From assembly GCF_003491345.1 (NCBI RefSeq), contig NZ_CP025513.1, forward strand, positions 62,001 to 126,000: a DNA stretch of 64,000 nt, written 5' to 3'. The DNA comes from Neorhizobium sp. SOG26 (GTDB lineage Bacteria > Pseudomonadota > Alphaproteobacteria > Rhizobiales > Rhizobiaceae). Positions 8,962 to 18,254 of the stretch are shown here, piece after piece; positions within the stretch are counted from its first letter, which is position 1; every line of letters begins with the position of its first letter. The translations under genes and the position numbers were made by a program. The notes under the pieces were generated by a model. It did not search any database. It saw only the letters and a list, made by a program, of their open reading frames with translations, and was not told the origin of the DNA.

Positions 8962-10083
8962 ATGCAGCGCATCGTATTGTTTTCCGGCGGTACAGCGTGC
9001 CGCGCCATCAATATTGCGCTCGCGCGCAAGCAGGTGCACCTGACGCGGGTAGTTCCTGCCTGGGACAGTGGCGGCAGCTCAAAGCTGATCCGCGAGAAGC
9101 TCGGGATCCTGTCGGTGGGCGACATCCGGCAGGCGCTGATGACTATGGCTCACGGCGAACGTCGCTCCGGCGATGTGGTAAGGATCTTCAACACACGTAT
9201 CTCTGCTCTGGGCGAGGCTGGAGATGCTCGGCAGGAATTCCAGCTTTATGCAGAGGGCCGACACCTTCTCCTGGAGCGCATGGAGCCGGGGCTTAGAGGC
9301 GCGATCCTGAACTATTTGCGAACCTTTGCGACCGCGGTCGGTCCTGACTTCGACTTCCGGAACGGCAGCATCGGCAACTTCATCCTGACCGGTGCATGCA
9401 TCGCTCACAACGGCGACGTCAACACCGCCATCTTTGTGTTCCGCAAGCTCTGCGGCATTGACGGGAACGTCTGGCCGTCCTCGCTCGACAGCGATCTTAT
9501 CCTGTCCGGCCGCCTCAGGAACGGCGCGCGCCGTGCGCCGCAGGACGTACTCTCGAAACTGTCGGAAGCCGATGCGGCAATCGGGATCGAGGACATCGAG
9601 CTCACCAGTGAGAGCGGTAAGAATCCTGCTGCAAACAACGCCGTCATCGAAGCCATCGAGGCCGCCGATGTGGTGGTGTTCGGCCCGGGGAGTTTTTACA
9701 CCAGCATTCTCCCGCATCTGCTTGTCGGAGGCGTCGTTGAGGCCGTCGAGCGCGCACGTTGCCCGGTTCTGTTTGTCGGCAACATTCTGCAATGCCGCGA
9801 AACGCTGGGCATGACGCTGGACGACGTTATGGACCGGTTCCTTCGCACGTGGCGGAACGTGAGCAGCACCCAATCCGCACCGCTTGTACAGGTCCTGGCC
9901 AACCGGGTGCTGCTGCCGTTTGGACGTTCGCTCGGCGCTTTTCCCTACCTGACGGCACACGCCGAAACCCAAGGTGCCGGCACCGGCTACGATCTCATCG
10001 AAGATGAGCTCGAGGACGCCTGGAACAGAGGCCAGCATGACGGGGATCTGGTTGCCGAACGCATACTGGCGCTCGCGGGCTAG
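8962..10083 (+). CDS. CofD/YvcK-like family protein
   Basis: 373 aa member of the 2-phospho-L-lactate transferase CofD / YvcK superfamily. The N-terminal Rossmann-like start VLFSGGTACRAINIAL and the loop DSGGSSKLIREKLGIL match the family's GGGT and DDGGSSGRLR elements; later signs are SIGNFILTGAC, NAVIEAIEAADVVVFGPGSFYTSILPH (family GPGSLYTS) and FVGNIL. CofD makes coenzyme F420 precursors and YvcK acts in carbon-source-dependent envelope control; no F420 genes are seen here, so a YvcK-like or uncharacterised role is likelier. It converges with a LysR/TrpD-like fusion, both stops sharing one CTAG. Confidence 0.85.
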   Translation: MQRIVLFSGGTACRAINIALARKQVHLTRVVPAWDSGGSSKLIREKLGILSVGDIRQALMTMAHGERRSGDVVRIFNTRISALGEAGDARQEFQLYAEGRHLLLERMEPGLRGAILNYLRTFATAVGPDFDFRNGSIGNFILTGACIAHNGDVNTAIFVFRKLCGIDGNVWPSSLDSDLILSGRLRNGARRAPQDVLSKLSEADAAIGIEDIELTSESGKNPAANNAVIEAIEAADVVVFGPGSFYTSILPHLLVGGVVEAVERARCPVLFVGNILQCRETLGMTLDDVMDRFLRTWRNVSSTQSAPLVQVLANRVLLPFGRSLGAFPYLTAHAETQGAGTGYDLIEDELEDAWNRGQHDGDLVAERILALAG

Positions 10084-11543
10084 GCATGGCGCCTGCGCTT
10101 GAGCCACTGATCCGTTGCCTGAGTCAGGCAGGCTTCAAAACTGCGGCGCGAGTCACGTGAGATCGCAAAGAGCGCCGTCGCTGCCGTATAGATAATCGAG
10201 GCCTCGGCCAGATCGTCACGAGCCGCACCCGACCACACGGCCTCCCAATATTCCCTTTGACTGAAACCGCTGCTTGGCAGCCCGGTACCGGTGATACCTG
10301 AGCATGCCGGCACCCGCTCACTCGACTCCTCACCATTGATGATGCGCATCAGGTTTGTCACGCGGCTCGGATTGATCTGGGCGAAACTGCGCACGGCGCC
10401 CAAGATCGTCACGTTCTCCATCCCCAACAGCTTCACGACGTCTCCATAGATCGCCAACGAAGCGCCGCCAGGGGCTCCCGTCAATGTTGCAGACGCAGCG
10501 AATGGATTGATGAGCGGCACGACGTTGTGAAGCGGCGTGCGGGTTTCAAGCAGCGGGTGGAGGTTGAGGATGCTCTGCGTACGCGGCGCAAAGGCGGCCA
10601 GCGGCACATAAGCGATGTTGCACGCACCAAGCGCCGCAGAGACTTCCGGTGCCGTCACGCAGACCGGGATGCCGGCGTATTCGGCAGCCTGCTCGAGCTT
10701 GCCACTATCGCGACCGTTGCCGAAATGGCCGTGCATGACGACGCGGTAGCCCGCCGCCGCGACAAGCCGTGCCGAATGGATGAACCATGGCGGCCTCTTC
10801 CAGCGGGGCGATACATAGACCGGCCAGTCCAGATCCGGCTGATGATTGATCGCAACCGTTGGAGCGATTGCCTCGCGTATCGCCTCCACGAATCCCGCAA
10901 GCTCCAGCGCCGTCGGTCCACGATATTGCAGGGTCATCAACAGTGCACCAAGCTGCACCGCATCTGCCTCCCCCCGCAGGATGATGGTCAGAGCATCGCA
11001 CGCTTCCTCCCGCGCGAGCGTGCGGCTTCGTCCCGGGCCCGGGGAGGTGAGCGCGATATATTTAGCCAGTCTGCGCTGCGGTTCTTCGTTGTCGCCGATT
11101 GCAGCAATCCGCCTTGCGATCACCGACGGCGTCGGTGCGGCTTCGAGAAGGTCACCGCGGGAGACCGCGAGCGGCGGGGCTGCGACCCTCGAGCGCTTCT
11201 GCCAGCCGTCCGCCGGCGGTTCGACCACTCGCTGGGCGACATGTACGTCCGGCGCTCGAGTCCATCCCTCTCCCTTCAGAAGCGCTTCCGTTTCTTCCGC
11301 CAGCGCGCGAACCCGCAACCTCAGGGATTCAGCAAACGGCGTTGGTCGCAAGCCCCGGCCGGTCCGAATGAAGATCGGATCGTTGTAGAGGTTTCTCAAC
11401 TCACCCAGCATGCGGCTGACGGCAGACACCTGCAGTTCCAAGCTGGCGGCAGCACCCGTCACGCTTCCTTCCCGCAACAAGGCATCGAGCGCGAGAAGAA
11501 GCTTGATCTTGCCGATCGGTGGAAGCTTGCCGTCGTTCGTCAT
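10080..11543 (-). CDS. LysR-type HTH fused to TrpD-like (glycosyl transferase family 3) domain
   Basis: 487 aa. Residues ~8-75 form a LysR-type winged helix (LDALLREGSVTGAAASLELQ, then SAVSRMLGEL). The LysR sensor domain is absent. After a linker comes a helical TrpD N-domain (LTIILRGEADAVQLGALLM) and a GT3 core with VVMHGHFGNGRDSGKL in place of the TrpD KHGNR region, and TPLHNVVPLINPF matching the NLLGPLTNP region. The glycine-rich PRPP loop is not canonical, as in TrpD2/YbiB proteins that bind nucleic acid. Divergent from siderophore uptake genes and convergent with the CofD-like gene, so it may regulate the former. Function unproven. Confidence 0.85.
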   Translation of the reverse strand: MTNDGKLPPIGKIKLLLALDALLREGSVTGAAASLELQVSAVSRMLGELRNLYNDPIFIRTGRGLRPTPFAESLRLRVRALAEETEALLKGEGWTRAPDVHVAQRVVEPPADGWQKRSRVAAPPLAVSRGDLLEAAPTPSVIARRIAAIGDNEEPQRRLAKYIALTSPGPGRSRTLAREEACDALTIILRGEADAVQLGALLMTLQYRGPTALELAGFVEAIREAIAPTVAINHQPDLDWPVYVSPRWKRPPWFIHSARLVAAAGYRVVMHGHFGNGRDSGKLEQAAEYAGIPVCVTAPEVSAALGACNIAYVPLAAFAPRTQSILNLHPLLETRTPLHNVVPLINPFAASATLTGAPGGASLAIYGDVVKLLGMENVTILGAVRSFAQINPSRVTNLMRIINGEESSERVPACSGITGTGLPSSGFSQREYWEAVWSGAARDDLAEASIIYTAATALFAISRDSRRSFEACLTQATDQWLKRRRHA

Positions 11544-11652
11544 TTCGTGTCGTCAGATCGTTTGTCGGCACAAGCAGAACGATCAGGAACGACCTTGCTC
11601 GCCGGATTCCGTCGCGCCTAACATAAGCTTCCTCATCTTCTCAACTTTCTTT

Positions 11653-11685
11653 TTGAACCCGGTACCATTTTGCGATAATCGCAAA
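11653..11685 (+). promoter_or_regulatory. Candidate promoter overlapped by a perfect 17-bp palindrome
   Basis: TTTGCGATAATCGCAAA (11669-11685) is a perfect inverted repeat with one central base. It contains T-N11-A (TGCGATAATCGCA), the LysR-class binding pattern, and overlaps a possible -10 GATAAT (11674-11679) with TTGAAC (11653-11658) upstream at a short 15-base spacing. It lies between the divergent LysR-TrpD fusion and the siderophore binding-protein gene. The right arm plus flank (ATCGCAAATTG) recurs exactly upstream of the TonB receptor at 18160-18170. Confidence 0.6.
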
Positions 11686-11761
11686 TTGGAACGGCTAAAG
11701 AAAAGATGATTTGACGCTCCCCTTGGCCGATCGATAACTGGCTTCAACCACTCAACTTATC

Positions 11762-11788
11762 TTGGCCAAGCGCGTTTGGCCAAGCGCG
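11762..11788 (+). repeat. Tandem duplication of a 14-base unit in the 5' leader
   Basis: TTGGCCAAGCGCG occurs at 11762-11774 and again at 11776-11788, a 14-base period ending at the ribosome site. Each unit contains the palindrome TTGGCCAA. Slippage duplication is the simple explanation; it could also shape the leader of the binding-protein mRNA. Confidence 0.7.
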
Positions 11789-11797
11789 GAGATGATA

Positions 11798-12724
11798 ATG
11801 TTCGCAATACCCCGGACCTTCCACCTTGCTCTCGCCCTTGCCGGTGCGGTCTTTGCTGCTCAGGCAATGCCATCGGCGGCTGCCGAGATCGTCGTCAAGC
11901 ACAGCAAGGGTGAAACCACCCTGCCGTCGACGCCTGCAAAGGTGCTTGTGTTCGACATGGCGAGCCTTGACACGCTCCATACCCTCGGCATCGAAGTCGC
12001 AGGCGTTCCTTCTGGGGCGAAGCCTGAGTATCTTTCGAAATATGCGGGCAAGGATGTCCTGAACATCGGGTCCCTCTTCGAGCCGGATTATGAAGCGGTT
12101 AACGCCGCACAGCCGGACCTCATCATCGTCGGCGGCCGGTCGTCAGCGAAGTTCGAGGACCTGGCAAAGATCGCGCCGACCATCGACATGACGATCGACC
12201 AGACGAAGTTCGTTGAAAGCGCCAAGCAGAACGTCGAGACGTTGGCGGAAGTCTTTGGCAAAAAAGCCGAAGCTGATGCTGCCCTTCAGAAGCTCGACGC
12301 CTCTGTCTCTACGCTGAAGGCCAAGGCAGCGTCTGCCGGCAAGGGGCTGCTCATCCTCACCACCGGTGGCAAGATGAGCACCTATGGTGCGGGTTCACGT
12401 TTCGGTCTGCTCTTCACCGACTACGGCGTTCAGCAGGCGGATGAGAACATCAAGGTCGGCCAGCACGGCCAGCCGATTTCGTTCGAATACATACTCGAGC
12501 GTAACCCTGACTGGCTGTTCGTCATCGACCGCGACGCAGCGATCGGCCGCGACGGACAGGCGGCTGCCAAATTCCTCGACAACGAGATCGTCGCCCAGAC
12601 CACTGCCTGGAAAAAGAAGCAGGTTGTCTATCTCGACTCGACCGCATGGTACTTGGTTGGTGGTGGCCTCACCGCCATGCAGAACACCGTGGATCAGTTG
12701 ACCAAGGCCTTCGACGCCAAGTAA
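11798..12724 (+). CDS. Siderophore ABC transporter substrate-binding protein
   Basis: 308 aa periplasmic binding protein of the iron-siderophore (class III) type. A signal peptide (FHLALALAGAVFAAQAMPSAAA) precedes the mature start near EIVVKHSKGE. Typical marks: VVDM-like VLVFDMASLDTLHTLGI, QPDLIIVGGRSS and the long backbone helix region. The overall layout is that of the CeuE/FatB/VctP/YclQ group, which bind catecholate siderophores. ATG 11798 has GGAG six bases upstream; the TTG at 11762 lies in the leader repeat. First gene of binding protein-permease-permease-ATPase-DUF2218, and presumably iron-regulated. Confidence 0.88.
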   Translation: MFAIPRTFHLALALAGAVFAAQAMPSAAAEIVVKHSKGETTLPSTPAKVLVFDMASLDTLHTLGIEVAGVPSGAKPEYLSKYAGKDVLNIGSLFEPDYEAVNAAQPDLIIVGGRSSAKFEDLAKIAPTIDMTIDQTKFVESAKQNVETLAEVFGKKAEADAALQKLDASVSTLKAKAASAGKGLLILTTGGKMSTYGAGSRFGLLFTDYGVQQADENIKVGQHGQPISFEYILERNPDWLFVIDRDAAIGRDGQAAAKFLDNEIVAQTTAWKKKQVVYLDSTAWYLVGGGLTAMQNTVDQLTKAFDAK

Positions 12725-12745: not shown

Positions 12746-12775
12746 CGGCAGCAACCGGTTCATCGGTTGCTGCCG
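12746..12775 (+). other. Perfect 12-bp stem-loop between binding-protein and permease genes
   Basis: CGGCAGCAACCG (12746-12757), loop GTTCAT, CGGTTGCTGCCG (12764-12775). Only a few dispersed Ts follow, so full termination is unlikely. Hairpins at this position commonly protect the binding-protein message or cut transcription so that the binding protein outnumbers the permeases; that role is inferred here. Confidence 0.75.
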
Positions 12776-12799
12776 CTTCTGCATTTTCATGGTGACGTC

Positions 12800-13762
12800 T
12801 TGAAGCTCTTCCTCCTTGCCCTGCTGGCCACCGCTGCCGTCGCAGTCGCAAGCTTGTTTGTGGGCGTCAGCGAGGTGTCACTCCTTCGCCTGATTTCTGG
12901 CGAGGGTGACGAGAAGATGCTGATGGTGCTCGCCGGAAGCCGCGTGCCCCGGACATTGGCCCTGATCCTGGCCGGCGCCGGAATGGCCGTGGCCGGAACG
13001 ATCATGCAGATGCTTTCCCGCAACCGCTTCGTTGAACCGTCGACGGCTGGTACGGTGGAATCGGCAAGCCTCGGCATGCTGTTTGTGCTTCTTGTGGCGC
13101 CGGACCTGCCGGTGATGGCGAAGATGCTGGTCGCGGCCGCCTTCGCGCTGGCGGGAACGGCTGTCTTCCTCGGCATTCTGCGGCGGGTACCGTTGCGCTC
13201 CCCTGTACTGGTGCCGCTCGTCGGCCTGATGCTCGGAGGCATCATCAACGCCTGCACCACCTTCTTCGCATACCGTTACGACCTGATGCAGGCCATGGGT
13301 GCCTGGACGAGCGGCGACTTCTCGGCGGTCCTGCGGGGCCGTTATGAGGTGCTTTGGATAGCGCTCGCGTTGACCATGGCCGCTTATATTGCCGCTGACC
13401 GCTTCACCGTGGCCGGCATGGGAGAGGATTTTTCGACCAATCTCGGGCTGAACTACCGCACGGTCGTCACGCTCGGCCTCGTCATCGTATCCATGGTGAC
13501 GGCATCGGTGGTGGTGACCGCCGGCATTCTGCCCTTCATCGGCCTGATCATCCCTAATCTCGTCAGCATGGCGATGGGTGATCGGCTGCGCCACACGCTG
13601 CCGTGGATCGCGCTTAGCGGTGCAGCACTCGTGCTCCTGTGTGACACGGTCGGACGCATCATCAACGCGCCTTACGAGATCCCGGTCAGCTCGGTGCTCG
13701 GCATCATCGGCAGCATCTTCTTCCTGCATATGCTGTTGCGGAGGCGATACCGTGCAGCATGA
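12800..13762 (+). CDS. Siderophore ABC transporter permease (FecCD family), first subunit
   Basis: 320 aa multi-pass permease. Family marks are SRVPRTLALILAGAGMAVAG, the conserved R-PR-L start region, and GILPFIGLIIPNLVSMAMG, the coupling loop to the ATPase. TTG 12800 with GGTGA four bases upstream is the most likely start: it begins right before the first helix. The TTG at 12767 lies inside a stable hairpin, and no ATG is available before residue ~50. The next permease starts inside this gene, so translation is coupled. Works with the neighbouring permease as a heterodimer in the inner membrane. Confidence 0.85.
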   Translation: MKLFLLALLATAAVAVASLFVGVSEVSLLRLISGEGDEKMLMVLAGSRVPRTLALILAGAGMAVAGTIMQMLSRNRFVEPSTAGTVESASLGMLFVLLVAPDLPVMAKMLVAAAFALAGTAVFLGILRRVPLRSPVLVPLVGLMLGGIINACTTFFAYRYDLMQAMGAWTSGDFSAVLRGRYEVLWIALALTMAAYIAADRFTVAGMGEDFSTNLGLNYRTVVTLGLVIVSMVTASVVVTAGILPFIGLIIPNLVSMAMGDRLRHTLPWIALSGAALVLLCDTVGRIINAPYEIPVSSVLGIIGSIFFLHMLLRRRYRAA

Positions 13763-14717
13763 GAAAAAGCGTTCGCCGATCGTGGTCCTCACGATCACCG
13801 CGGCCGTTGCGGCTGCCGCAGTTGTCGCCTTCATGACGGTTGGCGCCCGCGGCAACTGGGGCTTCGTCCTGTCATTCCGCGGCACCAAGCTTTTTGCGCT
13901 GATCCTCGTTGCCTACTCCATTGCCGTCTCGACGGTGCTGTTCCAGACGATCACCAACAACCGGATCCTGACACCGGCGATCATGGGCTTCGACTGGCTC
14001 TACATGCTGCTGCAGACGCTTTTCGTATTCGTGCTGGGCGCGGCTGCGACGTCCGCTATCGATGCGCGACTGATGTTTGCCATCGAGGTCGGCACCATGC
14101 TGGCCTTCTCCCTGGTGCTCTACCGCTTCATGTTTTCCGGCGCAGTGAAGGACCTGCACCTGCTGCTGCTGATCGGGGTGGTGTTCGGCACCCTGTTCCG
14201 CAGCCTGTCTGGCTTTCTCCAGCGTCTAATCGATCCGAACGACTTCGTGGTTCTCCAGGACCGGTTGTTTGCAAGCTTCAATGGGGTCGACTCGAACCTT
14301 CTGCTGATCTCAACGCTGTTCGTTGCCGGCGCTAGTGCATTGGGACTGCGGATCTTCCACACCTTCGACGTGATGTCCTTGGGGCGGGAAACAGCGATCT
14401 CGCTTGGTGTCGATCATCGGCGGGTGACGATGACGGTGCTTGCGATCGTGACCGTGCTCGTTTCGGTCTCTGCAGCACTGGTCGGCCCGGTAACCTTCTT
14501 TGGCCTGCTCGTCGCCAACCTCGCTTATATCCTGATGCCGACTGGCAAACATCGCTTCGTCCTTCCGGCGGCGATCCTGCTTGCAGTGATCTGTCTCGTG
14601 GGTGGCCAGACGATCCTTGAGCGGGTCTTTGCCTTCGACACCGCGCTCTCCATTGTCATCGAGTTTGCGGGCGGGCTTTTCTTCATCTTCTATCTTCTCA
14701 GGGGCAATGCCCGATGA
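13752..14717 (+). CDS. Siderophore ABC transporter permease (FecCD family), second subunit
   Basis: 321 aa from GTG 13752, overlapping the first permease by 11 bases. The frame is open much further upstream, but those residues are the first permease's other frame. Marks: TPAIMGFDWLYMLLQT, GRETAISLGVDHRRVTM and GPVTFFGLLVANLAYIL (ATPase coupling loop). It has the shape of the CeuC/VctG-type second permease. Its last codons overlap the ATPase start by four bases (ATGA). Confidence 0.87.
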   Translation: MQHEKKRSPIVVLTITAAVAAAAVVAFMTVGARGNWGFVLSFRGTKLFALILVAYSIAVSTVLFQTITNNRILTPAIMGFDWLYMLLQTLFVFVLGAAATSAIDARLMFAIEVGTMLAFSLVLYRFMFSGAVKDLHLLLLIGVVFGTLFRSLSGFLQRLIDPNDFVVLQDRLFASFNGVDSNLLLISTLFVAGASALGLRIFHTFDVMSLGRETAISLGVDHRRVTMTVLAIVTVLVSVSAALVGPVTFFGLLVANLAYILMPTGKHRFVLPAAILLAVICLVGGQTILERVFAFDTALSIVIEFAGGLFFIFYLLRGNAR

Positions 14718-15472
14718 TCGAAATCACTGACGTCACCAAAGCCTATGGCAATACAACCGTGGTGGACCATGTTACCGCGAAGCTGCCGAAGGGCGGCATC
14801 ACCTCCATCATCGGGCCTAACGGCGCCGGCAAATCGACGCTTCTGTCGATGATCGCCCGACTGATTCCGAGCGACCAAGGCACGGTGCTGGTGGACGGAT
14901 TGGATGTTGCCCACACCTCAGGTGAAACGCTAGCACGCCGGCTGTCGATCCTGCGCCAGGACAACCACATGACGGCACGGCTTACCGTGAGGGATCTCGT
15001 GGCATTCGGGCGCTACCCGTACAGCAAGGGGCGGACGACTGCGGAAGATCAGGCTCATATCGCTCGCGCGCTTGGCTATCTCGGACTGGAAGAACTGGGT
15101 GACCGCTTCCTGGACGAGCTCTCCGGCGGACAAAGGCAGCGCGCCTTCGTTGCCATGGTGCTCTGCCAGGACACCGACTACATGCTTTTCGACGAACCGT
15201 TGAACAACCTCGACATCCGCCATGCTGTCGGCATGATGAAGCTTCTTGGCAACGCCGCGCGGGATTTCGGCAAGACCGTGGTCGTTGTCCTCCACGACGT
15301 CAACTTCGCCTCCTGCTACTCGAACCACATCATCGTCATGCGCAACGGCAAGCTTTTCCTGCAGGGCACACCACACGAGATCATCCGTCCCGAAACGCTG
15401 GAGCAGACCTATGGCTGCCCGTTCGATGTCCAGGACATCGGCGGAAACCGGATTGCCGTCTATTACACGTAA
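14714..15472 (+). CDS. Siderophore ABC transporter ATP-binding protein
   Basis: 252 aa FecE/CeuD-type ATPase. Walker A GPNGAGKST, Q-loop LRQDNH, signature LSGGQRQRAFVAM, Walker B YMLFDEPLNNLD, switch histidine VLHDVN. It starts at an ATGA overlap with the second permease. It powers import of the ferric siderophore from the periplasm. The next gene starts 57 bases on, still on the same strand. Confidence 0.92.
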   Translation: MIEITDVTKAYGNTTVVDHVTAKLPKGGITSIIGPNGAGKSTLLSMIARLIPSDQGTVLVDGLDVAHTSGETLARRLSILRQDNHMTARLTVRDLVAFGRYPYSKGRTTAEDQAHIARALGYLGLEELGDRFLDELSGGQRQRAFVAMVLCQDTDYMLFDEPLNNLDIRHAVGMMKLLGNAARDFGKTVVVVLHDVNFASCYSNHIIVMRNGKLFLQGTPHEIIRPETLEQTYGCPFDVQDIGGNRIAVYYT

Positions 15473-15529: not shown

Positions 15530-15832
15530 ATGACCGAACAGCAGACCCGCGCCACAAGCCACGCCAGTATCCCGACTGAGCATGCGAGCAAATACCTGCA
15601 GCAGTTGTGCAAGCATTTCGCGCATAAGCGCCCCGTGACGTTCGACGAACACAGAGGTCAGATCAGCCTGATGAGCGGCGATTGTTACTTGCAGGCCGAA
15701 GACGCGGCGCTGGCTCTCCGCGTGGAGGCCGAAGACGCCGAGAACCTGCCACAGCTGGAGGATGTTGTGGTGCGCCACCTTGTCCGTTTTGCTTTCCGTG
15801 AAGAACTGCAGGTCGAGTGGACGAAGGCCTGA
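15530..15832 (+). CDS. DUF2218 family small protein of the siderophore locus
   Basis: 100 aa, recognised by the family core ASKYLQQLCKHFAHKRPVTF, DEHRG and the end HLVRFAFREELQVEW. DUF2218 proteins often lie beside siderophore uptake or reductase genes. A role in releasing iron or handling the chelate in the cytoplasm is a guess; no metal-binding motif is obvious beyond several histidines (QLCKHFAH). Last gene of the plus-strand uptake operon, ended by a strong terminator. Confidence 0.82.
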   Translation: MTEQQTRATSHASIPTEHASKYLQQLCKHFAHKRPVTFDEHRGQISLMSGDCYLQAEDAALALRVEAEDAENLPQLEDVVVRHLVRFAFREELQVEWTKA

Positions 15833-15952: not shown

Positions 15953-18058
15953 TTAAAACGACTTGCTGACGCTGAGCCAGAAGCGGCGTCCTTCGACGAC
16001 AGTGTTGAAGTCCGTCTGCTCGATCTTCTTGTCGAAGACGTTGTAGACGGCCGCATTCATCGTCACGCCTTCGCCCGCGTCGAACTTCGCGCCGATATCG
16101 AACGTGGCGTAAGCGTCGTACTTGCGTCCCGGCTGGCCATTGATCGTCACCGGACGACCATTCGTTCCAATCCGGGCACCAGCCGCGATTTCTTCACCGT
16201 GGTAGTTGCCGGACACCCATGCCTCAAGGCCTTCGATCGGCGTGACCCAGTCCAGGCGGATATTGGCCATGTGCTCTGGCGTGCGGGCGAGCGGGAAGCC
16301 AGCGTAATCACCGGTCTGCTGCTCCGAATGTGTATAGGTGTAGCTACCGCGGACCGTCAGCTCTGGCGTCGCATACCATTTGGCCGTCAGCTCAACGCCC
16401 TGGATCACCGCATCGTCAATGTTGTAGCTGTACCAGAGCCGGTAGTTCGGATCTTCCGACCAGCGCTCGGGCGTGCCATCGGGCCGTAGGACCAGCGCAT
16501 TGCTGATCTTGTCCTTGAAGTCGGTGTAGAAATAGGTCGCACCGAGAACCAGATCATCCTGCTCCCAGACCGCACCGATTTCATAGCTGGTGCTAGTTTC
16601 CGCCTTCAGGTCCGGATCCCCGATGATGACACCGCAGGTGCCCGCCGGACCGTAGGAGCAGCCGCTGCCGCCGGTCGTCATGGCGTAACCGGGCGCAATC
16701 TGGCGGATGTCCGGTGCACGGAAACCGGTCGAAACGCCGCCCTTGATTGTCAGGTCGTCGGTCGCGTTCCAGACGCCGTAGATGCGTGGGGTCAGGTTAT
16801 CGCCGTAAACGTCGTGGTGGTTAAGGCGCAAGCCCGTGGTCAGTGCGAAGTCATCCGTGATCTTCCACTCGTCTTCGGCAAATAGCGCCCACTGTTCAAT
16901 GCTGAAGGTTTCGGTGACACCGGTGCGCCGGCCCGGGTTCTGGTCACGCAGCCGGCCTTCCATGTACTGCCCGCCTGTAATGACCGTGTGCTGACCCAGA
17001 AGTTCAAACGGCGTCGTGAACTTGCCGTCGACGACGGTGTTACGGATCTGCGGCGCACGCGGATTGCGCACGAAATCGCCGGTCGCAGCATCATAGTTGT
17101 AGGTCGTCCGCGTCCCCCATTCCTGCTGGATGGAGAATTCCGAGGTTGTCCGTCCCCAGCGCCCGGTATGCGACAGTGACCAATGATCACGGTCGTGGTG
17201 AGGCTCGGTGGCAGCGGCAGTCGCCTCCAGGGTTTCACCCGGACGCGCCTTGCGCTCGATGCGGCTCAGGCCGCCCTGAAGGACGATGTCATGGTCTTCA
17301 TTCGGCGTCAGCGTCAGGCGGCCGGCAATATCGCCTTCCTTGGCACCCGTGATGCCGCTGAGGAAGCTGTCTTCGCCGCGCTTGTAGCCACGTCCCCAGA
17401 TCTGCAGGCCGAGCGTATCCTTCAGGATCGGGCCATTGGCATAGAAGGAGACCTGACCGCTATTGCCGAACTTGCTGTGCTGCTGAAGGGTGGCTTCGGT
17501 CGTGACACTTCCGGACCAGGCGTTCGAGACCTTGCGGGTGATGATGTTGATAACACCGCCCATGGCATCCGAACCGTAGAGCGAGGACATCGGACCGCGA
17601 ACGACCTCGATGCGCTCGATGGCGGAAACCGGAGGAATGAAGCTCTGCTCAAAGCCGGAGCTTCCGTTTGGGCGGGCGTCTCTGGTGCTCTGCCGCTTTC
17701 CGTCAACCAGGATCAATGTGTAGGTCCCGGGCAGGCCTCGGATATAGATGTCCTTCTCGTTGGCAACACCGGTCACGGCGACACCCTGGACTTCGCGAAG
17801 CGCATCGGTCAGGTCACGGAACGCACCTTTTTCCAAATCCTCGCGCGTGACGACGGTGATGCTCGCAGGTGCATCCTTCACGTTCTGCTCGAACCCCGAT
17901 GCCGTCACGACGATCGTCTCGAGGACGGAATCGTCTTGCGCATCCTGCGCCAGGGAATTGCCGGCAGCGCTGAGGATTGTTCCGGCCAGCATCAGCCGAA
18001 CCACCCTCTTGCGTCTAGCCTTGCTGTTATCCCGCCCCGGAACTGCTGCCCCTGTCAT
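15953..18058 (-). CDS. TonB-dependent siderophore receptor, FepA-like
   Basis: 701 aa outer-membrane receptor. A basic N-terminus and signal (VVRLMLAGTILSAAGNSLAQ) precede a TonB box (ETIVVTAS), a plug domain (SITVVTREDLEKGAFRDL, IERIEVVRGPMSSLYGSDAM, GGVINIITR) and a 22-strand barrel closing with a terminal phenylalanine (RRFWLSVSKSF). The plug and the Cys pair near CSYGPAGTCG resemble FepA/PfeA/BfeA-type receptors for catecholates such as enterobactin. Together with the CeuE/FatB-type ABC genes convergent to it, it makes one complete uptake route. An Irr-like box lies 77 bases upstream of the start. Confidence 0.9.
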   Translation of the reverse strand: MTGAAVPGRDNSKARRKRVVRLMLAGTILSAAGNSLAQDAQDDSVLETIVVTASGFEQNVKDAPASITVVTREDLEKGAFRDLTDALREVQGVAVTGVANEKDIYIRGLPGTYTLILVDGKRQSTRDARPNGSSGFEQSFIPPVSAIERIEVVRGPMSSLYGSDAMGGVINIITRKVSNAWSGSVTTEATLQQHSKFGNSGQVSFYANGPILKDTLGLQIWGRGYKRGEDSFLSGITGAKEGDIAGRLTLTPNEDHDIVLQGGLSRIERKARPGETLEATAAATEPHHDRDHWSLSHTGRWGRTTSEFSIQQEWGTRTTYNYDAATGDFVRNPRAPQIRNTVVDGKFTTPFELLGQHTVITGGQYMEGRLRDQNPGRRTGVTETFSIEQWALFAEDEWKITDDFALTTGLRLNHHDVYGDNLTPRIYGVWNATDDLTIKGGVSTGFRAPDIRQIAPGYAMTTGGSGCSYGPAGTCGVIIGDPDLKAETSTSYEIGAVWEQDDLVLGATYFYTDFKDKISNALVLRPDGTPERWSEDPNYRLWYSYNIDDAVIQGVELTAKWYATPELTVRGSYTYTHSEQQTGDYAGFPLARTPEHMANIRLDWVTPIEGLEAWVSGNYHGEEIAAGARIGTNGRPVTINGQPGRKYDAYATFDIGAKFDAGEGVTMNAAVYNVFDKKIEQTDFNTVVEGRRFWLSVSKSF

Positions 18059-18134: not shown

Positions 18135-18151
18135 TTTAGAAGGTTTCTAAA
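18135..18151 (-). promoter_or_regulatory. Irr/ICE-like iron-control box upstream of the TonB receptor
   Basis: TTTAGAA-GGT-TTCTAAA is a perfect 7+3+7 inverted repeat 77-93 bases before the receptor start. It fits the iron control element recognised by Irr in alphaproteobacteria as I recall it. Nine bases further upstream the receptor region has ATCGCAAATTG (18160-18170), shared with the binding-protein promoter at 11678-11688. Confidence 0.72.
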
Positions 18152-18254
18152 TGCATAAGATCGCAAATTGCCCCGCCGCACGCGATTGCACGACGGTCTA
18201 CACACCCATTCGGGTCGGCGAAAAAACGGCAACGGGAAAGCAAAAACTGGCGGA

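Follow-up and report, generated by a model that had tools for sequence, protein, structure and literature searches.

In a 64,000-nucleotide stretch of the Neorhizobium sp. SOG26 genome (contig NZ_CP025513.1, positions 62,001 to 126,000; hereafter the window), a gene at 10080-11543 on the reverse strand encodes a 487-residue protein in which a LysR-type helix-turn-helix (HTH) DNA-binding domain is fused to a TrpD-type enzyme fold. We consider it likely that this fusion is a dedicated LysR-type regulator of ferric-siderophore uptake, which works through a composite operator and carries a rebuilt TrpD pocket as a putative small-molecule sensor. The siderophore concerned is probably a catecholate. 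This reading draws on the computed architecture, a single origin in our sample, a conserved neighbourhood, co-occurrence with the operator and loss of catalytic motifs, and from these it makes proposals on DNA binding, dimerisation, ligand and direction of control.

LysR regulators constitute the largest class of bacterial regulators and are viewed as one HTH joined to one sensor fold. A first-pass annotation had described the present protein as a LysR HTH fused, in a continuous frame, to a complete TrpD-type fold that replaces the usual sensor, and our analysis bears this out. The gene is one continuous reading frame with an ATG start. Pfam places HTH_1 at residues 14-72 (E 3e-14; 53.1 bits vs a cut-off of 26.6), a domain also found in all seven other fusions scanned, followed by Glycos_trans_3N at residues 174-225 (E 2.2e-13) and Glycos_transf_3 at residues 257-401 (E 1.8e-6). 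No match to LysR_substrate, the PBP2-like (periplasmic-binding-protein-like) sensor domain, appeared up to E 0.1. The protein has the HTH of a LysR regulator and lacks its sensor domain. An AlphaFold2 model built from 26 fusions has a mean predicted local distance difference test (pLDDT) score of 78.4, with 10-residue block means of 68-97 over residues 161-487 and 54-84 over residues 11-90, where the HTH is modelled at moderate confidence. The flexible linker between the two parts is poorly predicted, with stretches below 50 inside 91-110 and 125-152. In the model, residues 157-486 superpose on TrpD (1khd_B) with a Z score of 30.2 over 312 residues and residues 154-480 on E. coli YbiB (8bfr) with a Z score of 28.4, and the TrpD domain fills the Foldseek and VIA-align match lists. 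The modelled C-terminal part is a complete TrpD fold, which on structure comparison occupies the place of the usual LysR sensor. We found no paper on a LysR-TrpD fusion in the open-access literature.

Like anthranilate phosphoribosyltransferase TrpD, the fusion has the complete fold; unlike TrpD, it lacks GTGGD and the catalytic Asp. The catalytic loops had been called altered beforehand, and an alignment of 31 fusions with 46 stand-alone relatives, three TrpD proteins and YbiB agrees. The fusions have no GTGGD loop, and all 31 carry Ala in place of the Asp of the DE pair, followed by Gln or Glu in the rows shown. R385 and A388 are invariant across all 31 fusions, whereas the stand-alone proteins retain a GGGGE loop at the position of R385. 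Similarly, S245 in all fusions, and P246 and H256 in most, stand against conserved A, G and L in the stand-alones. H271-G272 is retained in every row of the alignment and R335 in nearly all. Because of these fusion-specific conserved residues and the retention of H271-G272 and R335, the cleft looks rebuilt rather than simply decayed: the loops that carried GTGGD and the Asp appear to have been remade into conserved, fusion-specific elements (S245-P246, H256, R385, A388). The earlier idea of a nucleotide or phosphoribosyl ligand finds no support here, as the GTGGD motif for phosphoribosyl pyrophosphate and the Asp are lost and the loops rebuilt. From these residues we predict that the fusion is not an active TrpD. 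It is highly improbable that it remains an enzyme, a phosphoribosyl or glycosyl transferase with an incidental HTH; many database records do name it "glycosyl transferase family protein" and its TrpD fold is complete, but the absent GTGGD and the uniform Asp-to-Ala change speak against such activity, as does a score of 58.9 bits against the cut-off of 199 of the anthranilate phosphoribosyltransferase model TIGR01245.

The closest kin of the C-terminal part lie in the PRK09071 family. Residues 149-485 match NCBIfam NF006564 (PRK09071) at 282 bits against a cut-off of 257, whereas the YbiB/TrpD2 model NF006005 gives 65.6 bits against 185. The stand-alone PRK09071 proteins share with the fusions the C-terminal family and the LDWP-Y, PW, HG, R335, NP and W437 features; they differ in having no HTH, in keeping the GGGGE loop and in being more acidic, and roughly half of the sampled ones neighbour siroheme, nitrite or dsr genes. 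TrpD2/YbiB resembles the fusion in its fold, in having no TrpD catalysis and in its link to DNA, but it carries no LysR HTH and belongs to a dinG-ybiB operon. The kinship with TrpD2/YbiB proposed in the first-pass annotation accordingly yields to one with PRK09071, on these scores and on the tree described below. This bears on the explanation that the TrpD-fold domain has no sensing role and, as in YbiB, serves to dimerise the protein and/or to bind nucleic acid, with iron control left to Irr alone. The shared fold would suit such a module, and so would the charge of the fused domain, which is more basic (median +4, isoelectric point (pI) 9.1, n=31) than that of the stand-alones (-5, pI 6.1, n=46). 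YbiB binds nucleic acid regardless of sequence through basic grooves; counterparts of its Arg92 and Arg123 look only partly kept in the alignment. E. coli YbiB itself has a net charge of -3, its family is not the nearest one, and the conservation of the fusion-specific cleft loops exceeds the needs of a scaffold. We regard this explanation as unlikely. The basic character of the fused domain fits either an anionic ferric-catecholate or DNA.

In an IQ-TREE phylogeny of the TrpD-like domain, the 31 fusions group as a single clade with support of 100/100 and a long stem; 11 alphaproteobacterial stand-alones join it (100/97), six of them from nitrate-assimilation neighbourhoods. The tree program flagged the long branches of YbiB and of the Sulfitobacter fusion (L142) as unsure. 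The tree places the fusion as nested among stand-alones, which indicates descent from the PRK09071 family with a single origin within the sample. The fusion gene appears to be under purifying selection: in three pairs with dS (synonymous divergence) below 1, dN/dS (the nonsynonymous-to-synonymous ratio) was 0.05-0.08 for the HTH and 0.09-0.10 for the TrpD part, the remaining three pairs having dS near or at saturation. Recurrence of the fusion, which the first-pass annotation had proposed to count, is real, in 9/36 genomes of the genus and 30/297 of the family, own genome included in the former, and neither of the outcomes named beforehand as refuting it, two separate genes or a missing HTH, was seen. 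The HTH is shortened in two genomes, one without its first residues (G016) and one matching only from within the HTH onward (G212); six further matches in the family sample were partial or without an HTH. Broader sampling gave fusions in one of 385 class-wide genomes (47 with matches) and in three of 297 order-wide genomes (29 with matches), each count including our own genome, and the remaining matches covered the TrpD part or the HTH alone. A scan of genome contigs gave 49 loci, of which 19 (L061-L079) were HTH-only and were excluded from the fusion counts; the 30 named loci include Pseudorhizobium, Neorhizobium, Rhizobium, Agrobacterium, Ensifer and Pannonibacter. Plasmid records gave 50 matches at E 1e-20, of which 41 span 80% or more of the protein. 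Agrobacterium accounts for 20 of the 50, and this set adds Azospirillum, Cereibacter, Sulfitobacter, Shinella and Pararhizobium to the list of genera. The fusion is patchy within Rhizobiaceae, and it is neither chance nor a sequencing artefact.

Three loci show variant forms of the gene. In two Rhizobium-type species (L037, 7944-9992; L034, 7974-10019), the frame of the fusion stays open up to and through an IalB domain (E 2.5e-15 and 3.9e-17), and a signal-peptide-like hydrophobic stretch, judged by eye, lies between them; this suggests either a LysR-TrpD-IalB protein tethered to the membrane or a gene overlap. On an Aliirhizobium terrae plasmid (L043/L009), the fusion has no N-terminal end and the adjoining binding-protein gene was not found at the locus, as if a deletion had run through the divergent promoter.

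The stand-alone relatives offer another candidate ligand. They were found in nirB-nirD-nasA-gene-cysG operons or beside nasA (L146, L147 and L149 among these), and at L010, L011 and L013 beside dsrP/dsrN-like genes recognised by eye. Of 40 loci sampled as stand-alones (L184-L223), one (L203) turned out to carry a fusion. A tblastn search of the remaining 39 with 14 reference proteins gave a cysG, nas, nir or dsr match at 19. Siroheme chemistry is a common factor of these nitrite/nitrate, cysG and dsr-like neighbourhoods. The fused domain might thus sense the metabolite of its stand-alone ancestors, linked to siroheme, nitrite or sulfur, and couple siderophore uptake to cofactor demand; in keeping with this, D239, W240, P252, W253, H271, G272 and R335 are common to fusions and stand-alones. 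However, 20/39 sampled loci are without such a match, none of the nir/nas/cysG neighbours was seen at the Acinetobacter stand-alone locus, and the loops that differ between the two groups, S245-P246 and R385-A388, correspond to the ligand-binding loops of TrpD. Since it is these two loops that differ, the ligand has probably changed, and we hold an inherited ligand to be quite unlikely.

Siderophore-uptake genes accompany the fusion wherever its locus was examined. A TonB-dependent receptor gene and/or a siderophore ATP-binding cassette (ABC) operon adjoins it at 8/8 genus loci, and all 30 named loci adjoin uptake genes, 16 with an ABC operon and 14 where, of the proteins searched, a receptor alone gave a match. 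In the family sample, 28/28 fusions are divergent from a TonB receptor, with an ABC operon on the same stretch in 20. The annotated plasmid loci that we opened agree (9/9), and an Azospirillum record without annotation has ABC genes some 5 kb from the fusion. These locus sets overlap in organisms and share descent. In the Protein Data Bank, the closest relatives of the window binding protein are 8bf6 and 8b7x (titled ABC transporter / siderophore substrate-binding protein), with YclQ and enterochelin-binding proteins close behind; those of the window receptor are the colicin I receptor and then ferric enterobactin receptors. Because both proteins resemble catecholate systems, the cargo is likely a catecholate. 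Of the two kinds of neighbour suggested in the first-pass annotation, siderophore genes hold at every fusion locus examined, whereas the CofD-like gene was seen only in this window: no CofD match occurred at 8 other genus loci or the 30 named loci, the only sets searched for it. That gene is related to the GAK-system CofD family, but its 199.9 bits fall short of the TIGR04357 cut-off of 340, and a CofD/GAK link was dropped. Apart from these, two Azospirillum fusions have as neighbours the genes for a TonB siderophore receptor and for an Fe2+-dependent dioxygenase, and in E. coli ybiB is 2-3 kb away from ybiX and from fiu, which encodes a catecholate receptor (L224, 830000-842000), a parallel that is possibly a coincidence.

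A 33-bp composite sequence lies upstream of the fusions, TTTnGAAnnnTTCyAAw followed at fixed phase by TTnCn7GCAAA, the latter (site B) forming an imperfect T-N11-A site across the fusions. Sites of the T-N11-A kind at divergent promoters are those that LysR-type regulators bind. In the window the composite occurs twice. The copy between the regulator and the ABC operon pairs a degenerate Irr-like half with a perfect site B, and before the receptor the reverse holds. The best composite match beats all 100 dinucleotide shuffles in 24/28 family-sample upstream regions, in one orientation relative to the fusion. For comparison we used 14 of the 17 best no-fusion matches (G136, G216 and G129 were left out). 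The whole composite is in none of the 18 promoter regions at these loci, 14 belonging to transporters and 4 to receptors, and the median match is 18/21 for fusion loci vs 13/21 for the 18 regions (Mann-Whitney p 2.5e-7, which is not independent because the relatives that supplied the pattern share genera and descent with the loci tested). The tail TTCTAAAN11GCAAA occurs within one mismatch in 11/28 fusion stretches vs 0/14 no-fusion stretches. In the 4.56-Mb genome, TTCYAAWN11GCAAA is found at three places, two of which are the ABC/regulator (11669-11691) and receptor (18145-18167) promoters of the window.

The first half of the composite (site A) resembles the consensus of the rhizobial Irr box. 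With up to two mismatches it occurs at eight places in the genome, the perfect one preceding the window TonB receptor; four of the other seven precede genes that we identified by eye as mbfA, rirA, suf and nifU-like, and the Irr label rests on that consensus and these places. A passage in one report places an Irr box at mbfA in Rhodobacter (PMC3413700). The genome holds three Fur-family genes. A promoter/terminator consensus scan of 11500-11800 gave no match. In several Rhizobiaceae groups, a second conserved element with a TTAT arm, near ATAACTTGAG, lies closer to the divergent gene.

Besides the shared descent of pattern source and test loci, several observations weigh against a dedicated regulator acting at this operator. 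Neighbour conservation can also stem from inheritance. Genome-wide, none of the patterns is enriched over its control: the tail has 3 places vs 2 for its reversed control, TTTGCN7GCAAA alone 6 vs 5, and the Irr-like pattern 8 vs 6; for single operator patterns it is position that counts, rather than genome-wide number. The composite is absent upstream of the fusion at 4/28 family loci (L291-L293, L296) and upstream of the Azospirillum, Cereibacter, Sulfitobacter and Rhizobium ACO-34A fusions, three exception loci having partial matches (16-18/21) before the receptor instead. Furthermore, 2/18 controls (the L282 and L285 receptors, 16/21) reach 5 of 100 shuffles or better; their matches are concentrated in the Irr-like half, which may therefore serve Irr alone.

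In the reading that we favour, the HTH would bind both copies of the composite operator, the one next to the divergent ABC operon and the one preceding the TonB receptor gene, occupying site B, perhaps with site A, next to or overlapping the Irr-box-like site. LysR tetramers use paired sites. The TrpD-fold domain would dimerise the protein as in TrpD and YbiB, and binding of a small-molecule signal in the rebuilt cleft may alter the spacing of the HTHs and, in turn, transcription. Irr would read iron status and the fusion a siderophore-linked signal, the most likely class being the siderophore that is taken up, probably a catecholate, or an aryl fragment of it. The aryl fragment is a guess by analogy, made because the native substrate of TrpD is aromatic and the transporters are of catecholate type. 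Taken to its full form, in which an anthranilate-type aromatic pocket became the sensor of an aryl (2,3-dihydroxybenzoyl/salicyl) siderophore or its fragment and a LysR operator was joined to an Irr box, the proposal is possible but doubtful. If it were true, iron shortage and siderophore presence would be integrated at one 33-bp site, and the co-inducer domain of a LysR protein would be a retired enzyme of an amino-acid pathway.

IrgB of Vibrio cholerae is of the LysR class, with a divergent layout and a nearby Fur site. The present system resembles it in HTH class, in the divergent receptor gene and in an iron-regulator-like site in the same region, but, unlike IrgB-type activators, the fusion has a TrpD fold in place of a periplasmic-binding-protein-like sensor domain. 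By this analogy, the fusion would act as LysR activators of catecholate receptors do. A search of the open-access literature for IrgB together with LysR gave no match, and a passage in one paper calls IrgB the activator of the IrgA enterobactin receptor (PMC7600106).

Table 1. Coordinates of the fusion gene, its candidate operators and neighbouring genes in the window.
Feature	Position	Strand	Remarks
LysR-TrpD fusion regulator, 487 aa, stop included	10080..11543	-	Single open frame, Pfam, NCBIfam, AlphaFold2, structure superposition
HTH_1 (LysR) DNA-binding domain, aa 14-72	11328..11504	-	Pfam E 3e-14; coordinates from residue numbers
TrpD-fold (PRK09071-type) putative sensor/dimer domain, aa 155-486	10086..11081	-	NF006564; VIA Z about 30 to TrpD
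Composite operator candidate between regulator and ABC operon	11669..11701	-	18/21 informative positions
Site B of the composite, palindrome TTTGCGATAATCGCAAA (T-N11-A)	11669..11685	.	
Second composite operator candidate, upstream of TonB receptor	18135..18167	+	19/21; perfect Irr-box-like palindrome and half site B
Siderophore ABC substrate-binding protein	11762..12724	+	True start may be internal
FecCD permease 1	12767..13762	+	
FecCD-type permease 2	13641..14717	+	Start uncertain; open reading frame listed from 13578
ABC ATPase	14714..15472	+	
DUF2218 protein	15530..15832	+	Also at some other fusion loci
TonB-dependent receptor	15953..18058	-	Closest solved relative colicin I receptor (Cir, a catecholate receptor)
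CofD-like gene	8962-10083		Convergent with regulator, ends overlapping by 4 bp

Many records label a probable transcription factor as a glycosyl transferase. A stable TrpD-fold LysR family, with one origin in our sample, suggests that the LysR sensor is replaceable by an enzyme-derived fold, and that an old enzyme pocket has been turned into a sensor for iron scavenging. It also provides a first testable role for a branch of the little-understood PRK09071 family, and points to a specific regulator of the siderophore system across several alphaproteobacterial orders.
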